Position numbers and translations under genes: made by a program
Source of the DNA: Polycladidibacter stylochi
GTDB taxonomy: Bacteria > Pseudomonadota > Alphaproteobacteria > Rhizobiales > Stappiaceae
Assembly (NCBI RefSeq): GCF_001562055.1
Contig: NZ_LLWE01000019.1
Location: forward strand, 62,001 to 126,000
Direction of reading: 5' to 3'
DNA: 64,000 nt
Part shown: piece by piece, positions 49,362 to 53,594 of the stretch
Layout of the letters: each line of letters opens with the position of its first letter
Numbering within the stretch: position 1 is the first letter of the stretch
The notes under the pieces: model-generated
Database searches by the model: none
Told to the model about the DNA's origin: nothing
What the model saw: the letters and a program-made list of their open reading frames with translations, nothing else

Positions 49362-50414
49362 ATGCTTGCACCACTATTAATGTCCTCAGTGTCTTTCCAC
49401 CCTTCTGCAGGATGTCAAATAATTGAGCAAGAAGTACCCTCACCTTCCAGAAGTCAGGTACTTCTAAAACTTGTATGCGCAAGCCTTAACGCAAATGACA
49501 TTGACTTATACAACGATACAGTTTCAGGGAGGATAAAAACAAATACCAGTATAACGCCATGCCATGAAGCATGTGCTACTGTCGTTTCCTACGGGGACCT
49601 GGTGGAAGGCTTTGATGTTGGAGAGCTTGTTGCCATTAACCCCTGTCGTCCTTGTTGGCACTGTAAATACTGCCTCAACGATCAAACTCATTTATGCTTA
49701 GATACTATTACAACCAATCAAGAGTTAGCCTATGCTAAACACGGCATGCTCAGCGAGTATTTTGTAGTAGAGGATTATCAATGCTACCCTGTTGGCCCTG
49801 AGTGCGATACACACTTACTAAGCTTGTGTGCCGCACTAGCAGGTGCGCTACATCGCACCAATCGAGCGGGCCCCTTATTGGGCAAGCGTGTTCTGGTGTC
49901 CGGCTCAAACGCCAACGGCCTTCTTACTGCTTTAGCGGCGACGTTGGAGGCGGCAGAAAAAGTCTATTATCTCGCAGACTCCGAGCACACTATCCTTACA
50001 GCAATGCAGTTGGGCATTACTAATATTGTCGATACTCGCCTGTCAGATACACATAAACAGGAAATCTTATCTGATATCGATATCGCAATAGAAACAAGTG
50101 GCAGTACACATTTACTGCACGATTGCCTTTATTATGTTTCCCGTGGAGGACGCGTTGTTTATTCGAGTGGAAAACAAGATAATGTGTCTATCTCATTGCT
50201 ATACCTAATTGCACAAAAAGAACTCGAGCTGCGCGGAGCAACACAATTCGACGGCGAGTTTGCTAAAGCAGTTGACCTTATTGCCCGACAGGAAGTAAAC
50301 CTTTTACCCTTAATCACGACCAGCGTACCATTTGAAGAATCTATCAGCGCATTTGAGCTCGCAAGCTCGAAACGACCCACAATTAAAGTTCTGATATCGG
50401 CTAGAAACGAGTAG
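49362..50414 (+). CDS. Zinc-type alcohol dehydrogenase-like protein with altered active site
   Basis: The 350-residue protein has the medium-chain dehydrogenase fold. The structural-zinc cysteines are intact in NPCRPCWHCKYCLNDQTHLC. The catalytic zinc Cys is replaced: where relatives have CGSDLH, this reads NANDID. The GHE motif reads CHE. The Rossmann glycines (usual GAGPIG) read GSNANG. The protein may be a noncanonical or dead enzyme. The start is ATG at 49362 (GGA 6 nt upstream) or a second ATG at 49380. The next gene begins about 60 nt downstream. Confidence 0.78.
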   Translation: MLAPLLMSSVSFHPSAGCQIIEQEVPSPSRSQVLLKLVCASLNANDIDLYNDTVSGRIKTNTSITPCHEACATVVSYGDLVEGFDVGELVAINPCRPCWHCKYCLNDQTHLCLDTITTNQELAYAKHGMLSEYFVVEDYQCYPVGPECDTHLLSLCAALAGALHRTNRAGPLLGKRVLVSGSNANGLLTALAATLEAAEKVYYLADSEHTILTAMQLGITNIVDTRLSDTHKQEILSDIDIAIETSGSTHLLHDCLYYVSRGGRVVYSSGKQDNVSISLLYLIAQKELELRGATQFDGEFAKAVDLIARQEVNLLPLITTSVPFEESISAFELASSKRPTIKVLISARNE

Positions 50415-50472: not shown

Positions 50473-51087
50473 ATGGCCAGTTCTCAAGTGGAAGACACGA
50501 TCACGCTAGAAGATAGATTGAAGAAAATAATACTGGACGATCCAGTTACAATGGAGCTCTTGCACATTGTAAACCGCTTGCAACTAAAACAATGTTGGCT
50601 GGTTTCTGGTGCGATTTATCAAAATGTCTGGAATACCCTCTCAAATAAGCCTTTGGGCAACGGGATTAAAGACTACGATATCATCTATTATGATGCGGAT
50701 GATTTAAGCTATGACGGGGAAGACAAGCATATTGGCACCCTAAATAAGCTAAGTGCACATATGAGAATCGAAGTTGAGCTTAAAAACCAGGCACGCGTGC
50801 ATTTGTGGTATCCCAAACGGTTTCAATGCCCTTACCCGCAACTCCAAACCGCTCTACAGTCCCTATTATATTATGCTTCGACAACACATAGTGTTGCAGT
50901 GCGGTTAAGTGGTCGGGGGGAATTGGAAATACATGCACCTTTTGGTTTGGAAGATATTTTTTCTATGATTATTCGCCCCAATTATGCGCTCAACAATCAA
51001 AAGAGTTATGTTAGCAAAGCCATGCGCCAACAAAGCATTTGGCCACAACTAACCGTTCTGCCATGGGAAAACGATCTGACCAAGTAA
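50473..51087 (+). CDS. Nucleotidyltransferase family protein (NTP_transf_6/DUF925-like)
   Basis: The 204-residue protein has a minimal nucleotidyltransferase fold. Family phrases are QLKQCWLVSGAIYQNVWN, the acidic pair region GIKDYDIIYYDADDLSYDGED and IEVELKNQARVHLWYPKRF. The end LEIHAPFGLEDIFSMIIRPN is diagnostic. The carboxylates needed for metal binding are present, so it should be active, but its substrate is unknown. The ATG at 50473 follows AAGGAG. A second, degenerate copy lies directly downstream. Confidence 0.82.
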   Translation: MASSQVEDTITLEDRLKKIILDDPVTMELLHIVNRLQLKQCWLVSGAIYQNVWNTLSNKPLGNGIKDYDIIYYDADDLSYDGEDKHIGTLNKLSAHMRIEVELKNQARVHLWYPKRFQCPYPQLQTALQSLLYYASTTHSVAVRLSGRGELEIHAPFGLEDIFSMIIRPNYALNNQKSYVSKAMRQQSIWPQLTVLPWENDLTK

Positions 51088-51168
51088 GAGTTTGCTAGCC
51101 TTAACGATCACTTACTCTAGCCACATTCATTGTATGGCAATAAAGTCTCTGGCAAAAAGTCAGGTAAC

Positions 51169-51798
51169 ATGAGCCAACAAGAATTTTGTTTTCAGCAAGA
51201 GAAGCACCCCCTACTTGTATTGGATACACATCATGCCTCGGAACAAGACTATCAAGTGCTCCTAAGGCTGTCTGTTCTCCAGTGTAAACAACTCATGATA
51301 CGGCTGAATGCCTGCCGTTCCTTGAATCTCAATGACTATTACATTTCTGGAAAAACTGTTTGCTGGTATTTGTGGGCCGCGCTCGTATCAAGCCGCTCAC
51401 TGTCTCTAACTAAAATACTGCCTGAGCCAGTTTTCGTTTGCTACTATAGGCCGCTAGAAAGAAACCAACTTCGCGCACAAAACTACAACAAGCTAATGCA
51501 ATGCTTGGGCGGTCGTTCTAAACTAATCAATGTAAGCCAACTCAACCGAAATGCCTTGCTGCAATATGTTGAGTTATCGCAACCAATCAGCGCAACGACA
51601 GAAGCTTTGACACGACATCCTGTGCAAACCTACGCTTTTGGCATAAGGCTTTGTGCAAATAGACGTATAGAGATCTTTGCGCCCTTTGGTCTTAAGTCGG
51701 TTCTTCAGATGCAATTTACCCCAAACCCACTGGTTGTTGATCCCGCCACTTATCGAAAAGAAAAGCTGCAATACCTCACAGCGTTCAGGGACGATTAA
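51169..51798 (+). CDS. Degenerate paralogue of the nucleotidyltransferase
   Basis: This 209-residue protein aligns by eye with the previous gene: NLNDYYISGKTVCWYLW to QLKQCWLVSGAIYQNVW, and IEIFAPFGLKSVLQMQFTPNP to LEIHAPFGLEDIFSMIIRPN. The acidic stretch DYDIIYYDADD is replaced by EPVFVCYYRPLE, so the catalytic aspartates are gone. It is probably a pseudoenzyme, perhaps a partner or regulator of the active copy. Starts at 51130 and 51133 are also open. Its stop codon overlaps that of the convergent pabB-pabC gene. Confidence 0.7.
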   Translation: MSQQEFCFQQEKHPLLVLDTHHASEQDYQVLLRLSVLQCKQLMIRLNACRSLNLNDYYISGKTVCWYLWAALVSSRSLSLTKILPEPVFVCYYRPLERNQLRAQNYNKLMQCLGGRSKLINVSQLNRNALLQYVELSQPISATTEALTRHPVQTYAFGIRLCANRRIEIFAPFGLKSVLQMQFTPNPLVVDPATYRKEKLQYLTAFRDD

Positions 51799-53594
51799 AC
51801 ATTAACGACCTTAGCTGCCTTCAACCCACGAACTGAATTGGCTACAAACAGTTCATCAGCAGCTTTTAAATCATCCACCTTTAAATCTGCCTCTACGGCC
51901 AAACCTAAATCTAAAAGCCCTTGTCTAAAGGTACCCGGCAATAAGCCATGCATTAAGCATGGAGTGAGCAATATGCCATCTTTTTTGAGGAATATGTTGG
52001 TAAAGCTACCTTCTGTAAGAAAGCCACTTTCATTTGTAAAAATAACTTCTTGTAGGTCTAATCGGCTTTGCCAAAGCGACCTCTCATTGTCATAGAACGA
52101 TCTTCTTGAGGTCTTATGAAACAAAAAGCGATCTTGTGATGACACTGTTTTATCACTTAAGGCCACCAGCCAAACTTGACCCTTATCTCGTTCACTTACG
52201 TTTAGAGCCGTAGATTTCACCGAAAAATCTCCATTTTCTGACAGGTCGACCCTAACGCGTTGCGGTGTATCACAGTCTACTACATGCTCATTCAATGCAG
52301 TGCTAATCTGTTGCGAGGAAACATTAAAACCAAAATAATTTGCTGATGCCTCAAGCCGTTTCATATGGCGTGCCAACAGCAAATAGCCATCTTCGGGTGT
52401 CCATTTCAATGTTTCAAAAATCGTAAATTCTTCGCGATTACCGGTCAAAAAGTTTAATTTCAAGCGGCATTCATCGTATTCTGCCGACACGCCGCTATCC
52501 CAGACAATACCGCCACCTGCACCTATGGTTCCGCGTCCATTATCATCTATTTCCAACGTTCGAATTGCAACGTTAAATCTATAATCGCCACTAGGTTCAA
52601 TATACCCAATGGAGCCCGTGTAAATACCTCGACTGGAAGCCTCAAGCTCATCAATTATTTCCATAGCGCGTAACTTCGGCGCTCCAGTAATAGAGCCACA
52701 AGGAAACAACTCGCGAATTGCTTCTTTCAAACCAGAATGCTCGTGTAATTGCCCTGTTACAGTTGATGTCATCGTTAAGAGGCTACGGTAAGTTTCCACG
52801 TGACAAATATTCGAAGCTTTCACAGTTCCATGCACACAAACACGCGATAGATCATTGCGCATGAGATCAAGTATCATGATGTTTTCAGCACGCGATTTTG
52901 CATCACTTTGCAAACTCTGCTTATGTTCAAGGTCTTCTTGAAGGGTTCGGCCGCGCTTGATTGTACCCTTCATAGGCTTAGTGGTGAGGCTATCTTCATT
53001 TGCAGACAAAAAACACTCGGGAGATAAAGAGAGTATAACCTTCTCTCCCGTATTAATTAGGGCAGCGTAATCAACAGGTTGGGAAAATAATAGTTGCTGG
53101 AACAATGCAATCGGGCAGCCGTTCAAATCAATTTTGGCCCGCATAGCCAAATTTACCTGATAGATATCCCCTTTAGCAATGTAATCGCGCACAGCTTGAA
53201 AAGCAGCCTCATACTGGCTCTTACTCATGTCAAAACCGCAAAAGTTTACATCCGGGGAAGCATCACTCGTTTTGGCTTGTTCTATGTAGGATTGTGTTTC
53301 GCGATCATTTAATAACTGTAGACTTTCAAAGGCAGCAAACCAACCTAATAATCCACATGGCTGCTTAAGCTTTTTATGGCGAAGTTTCTCTTCAAACGCG
53401 TACCCGAGTTCATAGGAAAAATAGCCGGCAAGATGCAAGCCTTTCCGGCGGCATGTTTCAATTCTCTCCAAAAAGCTTGGTACGTCCTGTAGGCTTTGAC
53501 AACTAAGATATTCCGCAGGTTTTTTATAGAGGCGGGATTGCTTGTTGAGCTTGTTAGAGACAAGTAAGATGCTGCCTTTAGGAAATGCCTGCAT
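51795..53594 (-). CDS. pabB: Aminodeoxychorismate synthase component I / aminodeoxychorismate lyase fusion
   Basis: The fusion makes p-aminobenzoate for folate. The N-terminal ~390 residues are PabB: KGDIYQVNLAMRA, PMKGTIKRG (with the lysine typical of PabB), ELFPCGSITGAPKLRAMEII and IGAGGGIVWDS. The C-terminal ~200 residues are the PLP-dependent PabC-like lyase with the PLP Lys in HKTSRRSFYD and TNIFLKKDGILLTP, GLLPGTFRQ. Total 599 residues. Both halves appear intact. Glutamine amidotransferase PabA is not in the window. Its stop overlaps that of the preceding plus-strand gene. Confidence 0.93.
   Translation of the reverse strand: MQAFPKGSILLVSNKLNKQSRLYKKPAEYLSCQSLQDVPSFLERIETCRRKGLHLAGYFSYELGYAFEEKLRHKKLKQPCGLLGWFAAFESLQLLNDRETQSYIEQAKTSDASPDVNFCGFDMSKSQYEAAFQAVRDYIAKGDIYQVNLAMRAKIDLNGCPIALFQQLLFSQPVDYAALINTGEKVILSLSPECFLSANEDSLTTKPMKGTIKRGRTLQEDLEHKQSLQSDAKSRAENIMILDLMRNDLSRVCVHGTVKASNICHVETYRSLLTMTSTVTGQLHEHSGLKEAIRELFPCGSITGAPKLRAMEIIDELEASSRGIYTGSIGYIEPSGDYRFNVAIRTLEIDDNGRGTIGAGGGIVWDSGVSAEYDECRLKLNFLTGNREEFTIFETLKWTPEDGYLLLARHMKRLEASANYFGFNVSSQQISTALNEHVVDCDTPQRVRVDLSENGDFSVKSTALNVSERDKGQVWLVALSDKTVSSQDRFLFHKTSRRSFYDNERSLWQSRLDLQEVIFTNESGFLTEGSFTNIFLKKDGILLTPCLMHGLLPGTFRQGLLDLGLAVEADLKVDDLKAADELFVANSVRGLKAAKVVNV

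Follow-up and report, generated by a model that had tools for sequence, protein, structure and literature searches.

Two PF06042 genes in tandem

The window (the whole stretch of DNA analysed, 64,000 nucleotides long and with a G+C content of 48.0%) is part of contig C41 of genome G000, which comprises 3,682,052 bases in 43 contigs. At 50473-51798, two open reading frames follow one another on the same strand, as the original prediction of an active nucleotidyltransferase beside its inactive paralogue had described. We refer to these genes as A and B; the features of the locus are as follows.

49362..50414, plus strand: zinc-type alcohol dehydrogenase-like gene (cluster c19), the upstream neighbour
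50473..51087, plus strand: gene A, a PF06042 nucleotidyltransferase with its acidic residues intact; 204 aa, with GGAG ahead of the ATG
50671..50703, plus strand: DYDIIYYDADD of A (residues 67-77), in which D67 and D69 form the DxD pair
50776..50778, plus strand: E102 of A, the candidate third carboxylate, from the alignment
50935..50949, plus strand: APFGL of A (residues 155-159), from BLASTP and the alignment
51088..51168, no strand: gap of 81 bp between A and B
51169..51798, plus strand: gene B, a predicted PF06042 pseudoenzyme; 209 aa from the ATG at 51169
51424..51459, plus strand: EPVFVCYYRPLE of B (residues 86-97), roughly opposite the acidic motif of A
51679..51693, plus strand: APFGL of B (residues 171-175), in register with APFGL of A
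51795..53594, minus strand: fusion of chorismate-binding and class IV aminotransferase domains, the convergent neighbour, which we take to be pabBC-like

A start of B at the upstream TTG (51130) would lengthen its product to 222 aa. Between 50200 and 52000, a scan detected nothing resembling a promoter, and nothing resembling a terminator on the plus strand.

Searched against Pfam (E values up to 10), each protein matched PF06042 alone, A with an E value of 1e-47 (162.4 bits) and B with 5.2e-15 (56.1 bits), both above the gathering cut-off of 25 bits. No other copies of the family were found in G000. The homology of A and B is weaker by pairwise BLASTP (E value of 2e-07 over 42 residues around APFGL) but secure by profile-profile comparison, in which 192 columns were aligned with a probability of 99.6 and an E value of 8.2e-25. 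Thus, the proposed kinship of the two genes is borne out, and the objection that they might share no homology falls away. Both quoted motifs, DYDIIYYDADD in A and EPVFVCYYRPLE in B, are present. The motifs said to be common to the two proteins fared differently: the C-terminal APFGL is in register, but the N-terminal 'SG' of B lies one residue out of line with that of A. NCBIfam yielded only a halogenase model as a weak hit for A, rejected at 10.3 bits against a cut-off of 900.

Distribution and ancestry of the pair

A recent taxonomic source divides the group to which this genome probably belongs, formerly Pseudovibrio, into several genera (PMC12080928), and for this reason we use 'genus' for Pseudovibrio in the broad sense. 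Within a family sample of 87 genomes, 78 matched PF06042. A is present in all 16 genomes of the genus, and B adjoins it on the same strand in 14; G016 and G020 carry A and lack B, and none of the 16 carries B in the absence of A. The co-occurrence of the two genes in other genomes, a check that accompanied the original prediction, therefore establishes a linked pair that is conserved across the genus. Elsewhere in the family sample, 62 of 71 genomes matched PF06042, with one copy each. The copy of G068 (G068:C1:764086-764573) is in two overlapping pieces, and may be a pseudogene. Four genomes from genera g2 (G001-G003) and g5 (G012) gave no match, and PF06042 is thus dispensable in parts of the Stappiaceae.

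The family, order, class and phylum samples, which overlap and are not exhaustive, contained no adjacent pair of full copies outside the genus. With the B profile, 83 of the 397 genomes in the order sample matched, and two matches occurred only in its four members of the genus. PF06042 searches of the class sample (385 genomes) and the phylum sample (397 genomes) found 81 and 85 genomes with a match, respectively, and here G000 alone had two adjacent full copies. Of the other genomes in these two samples, G672 carries its two full copies on separate contigs, the second copy of G548 is partial and lies on a different contig from the full one, and fragments were seen in G497, G1027, G1073 and G1119. 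Outside the A/B pair, PF06042 is single-copy in nearly all sampled genomes. A scan with the B alignment named eight carriers, all of them Pseudovibrio, from a single peptide pattern that does not amount to a census.

One member of the genus, P. denitrificans JCM 12308 (G017; L012 / L105), has A in pieces and B with one in-frame TGA. Its usual neighbour c2 was not seen either, and both assembly error and real decay are possible.

The surroundings of the pair are less stable than the pair itself. Both flanks vary between lineages, including within a clade of nine genomes, whereas the adjacency of A and B is constant. Of the 16 genus genomes in the synteny table, two have the alcohol dehydrogenase-like gene next to the PF06042 locus. 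B sits between A and the presumed pabBC-like gene in G000, G018, G019 and G027; in G016, which has no B, A adjoins that gene directly. The single PF06042 copies of G005 and G082 also adjoin it, and that of G070 lies about 1.8 kb off, and this gene is an old neighbour of the PF06042 locus. We drew no inference on function from it, because it runs towards the PF06042 genes from the opposite strand and the flank is not the same in all lineages. In G020 (L108), the nearest sampled relative of G000, A lies in another neighbourhood, with no pabBC-like gene within 14 kb. The gap between A and B ranges from 45 to 374 bp in 13 genomes, so that shared transcription is not assured. The neighbours of A and B that were scanned are alcohol dehydrogenase, chorismate-binding/aminotransferase, MarR and TRAP genes. 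A reading in terms of defence or phage was rejected, with no PADLOC and no PHROGs match at E values up to 1; furthermore, a scan of viral contigs with A returned 44 pattern stretches and no relative.

A PF06042 tree was built from 61 of 78 distinct sequences; the two rows of G017, in which both genes are interrupted, were excluded from it and from the residue counts below. The A proteins of the genus form one clade (99/90) and the B proteins another (100/100), which establishes a single origin for B. The B clade, on a stem of 1.3 changes per site, groups with the single active copies of genus g7 (95/75) and not with A, and a clade of A plus B is rejected only weakly (AU p of 0.023, and again 0.023 without the two longest B rows). 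A simple duplication of A inside the genus is disfavoured on these two grounds. The candidate origins are a duplication on the stem of the genus with long-branch pull, an older duplication followed by losses, or acquisition from a relative. If the grouping with g7 is real, B would be kin to the g7 copy, and A to the copies of g6 and g4.

The timing of the gain can be approached through the two genomes that lack B. In an rpoB tree, G016 is sister to G019 (100/99) and G020 is sister to G000 (100/100), and one sister of each pair (G019 and G000) carries B. The simplest account is thus a single gain ahead of the radiation of the genus and two later losses. Three separate gains would require an equal number of changes, but B forms one clade and always lies beside A. 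Most simply, therefore, B was already present in the ancestor of the genus.

Active site, fold and selection

The AlignHUSH paper on DUF925 describes two conserved aspartates and a third Asp or Glu, and proposes a nucleotidyl transfer reaction (PMC3228556). From the nucleotidyltransferase fold and that source, it follows that D67, D69 and E102 of A would act as metal ligands. Residues were counted in 13 full-length B rows and in 48 A-type rows, of which 15 belong to the genus and 33 to other genera. Asp occupies the positions of D67 and D69 in 48/48 A-type rows and in 0/13 B rows; Glu occupies that of E102 in 47/48 (the other has Gln) and 0/13; and the position of G46 is Gly in 48/48 and 0/13. 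A thus has the DxD pair and third acid of an active PF06042 nucleotidyltransferase, and B has neither: opposite D67, D69 and E102, the B protein of the window has I83, P85 and K118. The original prediction had noted that the acidic residues of the active site are present in A and gone from B, and this loss proves to be common to all 13 full-length B proteins. A fourteenth, the B of G017, which is shortened by its stop, has the same replacements. P156, G158 and L159 of APFGL are retained in 13/13 B rows. A presumed likeness of this segment to 'motif B' of CCA-adding enzymes was set aside.

AlphaFold2 gave a model of A with a pLDDT of 92.4 and a pTM of 0.86. The model of B reached 79.9 and 0.79, from an alignment that included A proteins and may pull it towards the fold of A. 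Among solved structures, 2LA3 matches both models best (Z of 19.6, rmsd of 2.9 and 182 aligned residues for A; 16.6, 2.8 and 177 for B), and the B protein of the window is thus predicted to retain the fold. For both models, the next-best matches are the head domains of bacterial CCA-adding enzymes, with Z values of up to 11.1 for A (3wfo_A, rmsd of 4.4, 165 aligned) and 9.6 for B (3h3a_B, rmsd of 3.6, 154 aligned). Sequence profiles searched against the PDB (E values up to 10) found 2LA3 and no CCA enzyme. On its predicted structure, A is a head-only member of the CCA-adding structural group.

These comparisons place the pair among known systems. Within PF06042 (NTP_transf_6, formerly DUF925; solved member NP_344798.1, PDB 2LA3), A and B both pass the Pfam cut-off and have 2LA3 as their top solved match; however, B departs from the family in lacking the DxD pair and the third acid, and the pair itself departs from a family that is nearly always single-copy in the sampled genomes. 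The bacterial CCA-adding enzymes and poly(A) polymerases share the head-domain fold with both models, but their chains of 340-450 aa consist of head, neck, body and tail, whereas A and B, at about 200 aa, match the first 200 or so residues and lack neck, body and tail. The MNT-HEPN toxin-antitoxin systems (MntA-HepT) likewise consist of two genes, one of them a minimal nucleotidyltransferase. Their fold similarity to A is weak (Z of 4.0-4.5), and the adjacent partner of A is a PF06042 paralogue in place of a HEPN protein. The eukaryotic NF45-NF90 heterodimer of DZF-domain proteins is comparable in another way: its members are paralogues with the nucleotidyltransferase fold that lack catalytic residues and associate with each other (PMC11952958). 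They belong to a different clade of the fold, and both partners are inactive, whereas A, judged from its sequence, is predicted to be active and its pairing with B is a proposal.

Selection on B was assessed in the nine-genome clade, where dN/dS was 0.028-0.155 for B (27/36 pairs with a defined value) and 0.050-0.168 for A (34/36 pairs), although many dS values exceed 1 and these figures are rough. Purifying selection on B has therefore continued in this clade after the loss of the active site, and such low values indicate that B is not a pseudogene there. G000 lies outside the clade, and none of its close relatives in the set carries B, so that these figures apply to the nine genomes alone.

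Possible roles of B and its relation to A

Our preferred reading, to which we give slightly less than even odds (a probability of about 0.45), is that B is a lineage-restricted, conserved pseudoenzyme that serves as a non-catalytic partner or regulator of A, in line with the heterodimer or regulatory partner that the original prediction had proposed. It draws on the constant linkage of the two genes, on the absence of any B without A and on the selection acting on B. B would have arisen from an active PF06042 nucleotidyltransferase and lost its metal-binding acids once, before the radiation of the genus, while keeping the fold. It would no longer transfer nucleotides and would act in trans on A, most likely in a heteromer that helps to hold, select or gate the substrate of A. 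A itself would transfer a nucleotide to some acceptor, as its fold, that of the head domain of bacterial CCA-adding enzymes, suggests. Because B is absent from G016 and G020, A presumably works without it there; B is dispensable in some lineages, and in the lineage of G000 it may be on the way out. A bolder version, which seems to us quite improbable, makes A and B the two obligate subunits of one template-independent nucleotidyltransferase, with A supplying the catalytic head and the inactive head B standing in for part of what neck, body and tail do to hold the substrate in CCA-adding enzymes. If true, the Pseudovibrio group alone would have a heteromeric enzyme that tails RNA or small molecules with the aid of a pseudoenzyme.

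The selection on B and its retained fold require no contact with A, and they would fit equally a non-catalytic protein with a role of its own, such as nucleotide or RNA binding, that merely stayed beside A after duplication. This is possible, if rather unlikely. In many species a wide gap separates A from B, and the N-terminal helix region (opposite residues 25-44 of A) is more alike among distant B rows (0.57) than in A (0.40). Moreover, the fold has other members that bind nucleic acid but do not catalyse, such as NF45-NF90 (PMC11952958). A free-standing role, however, would not need B to stay beside A while the flanks change, and B never occurs without A. New chemistry, in which B is an enzyme that catalyses an altered reaction or draws on other residues for its active site, we regard as very improbable. 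A D or E stands opposite D74 of A in 12/13 B rows and selection is strong in the nine-genome clade, but the B of the window is the one that lacks this acid, two of the usual metal ligands are missing from 13/13 rows, as is the third acid, their replacements vary (Q, P, I, V or H opposite D67; H, Q, K, R or A opposite E102), and the alignment contains no new conserved acidic set.

The same missing acid, in the window's B alone, bears on whether B in G000 is instead a decaying or functionally relaxed relic whose role in the rest of the genus has been, or is being, lost. The original prediction had named a second copy that is decaying and absent from close relatives as evidence against itself. 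Across the genus, where 14/16 genomes carry B, this does not apply, but for G000 it holds by half. The nearest sampled relative, G020, has no B, and no B copy has diverged further than that of the window, which has the longest end branch in the PF06042 tree (2.92). Its codon score is -0.005, against 0.145 for A and a mean of 0.19 (minimum of 0.07) for the 33 window genes of at least 250 aa. It also retains only 17/30 of the positions that are invariant in the other 12 B rows, whereas A of G000 retains 49/55. Relaxed constraint on B in G000 is thus a live possibility. Nevertheless, the frame has stayed open over 209 codons despite heavy divergence, the Pfam cut-off is passed, a confident fold is predicted, and A and the control proteins of G000 are likewise fast-evolving. 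The losses are also uneven, with 10/13 invariant positions kept in residues 136-209 and 7/17 before them, and in these alignments the C-terminal segment is the best preserved part of the protein. We consider a relic unlikely, and the partner or regulator reading remains the one we favour.

Coevolution of A and B, measured by distance correlation, was discarded as a line of evidence. The partial correlation between them was 0.64 (6/2000 permutations as high), or 0.92 without G000, but the unrelated control genes coaE and rsmG correlated equally or more highly with both A and B, and between themselves (0.72-0.83; 0.84-0.90 without G000).

Open-licence papers on PF06042, NTP_transf_6 or DUF925 included no work on cell function and reported no substrate, and those found on pseudoenzymes with nucleotidyltransferases, or on nucleotidyltransferases of Pseudovibrio, described no such active/inactive pair. 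PF06042 has one solved structure, and a pair that is genus-wide and was lost twice offers a handle on the family, through comparison of species that have B with those that lack it and through assays of the effect of B on A. If B does regulate or complete A, this would be a bacterial case beside the eukaryotic pseudoenzyme partners of this fold; inactive partners are already known there from NF45-NF90 (PMC11952958).
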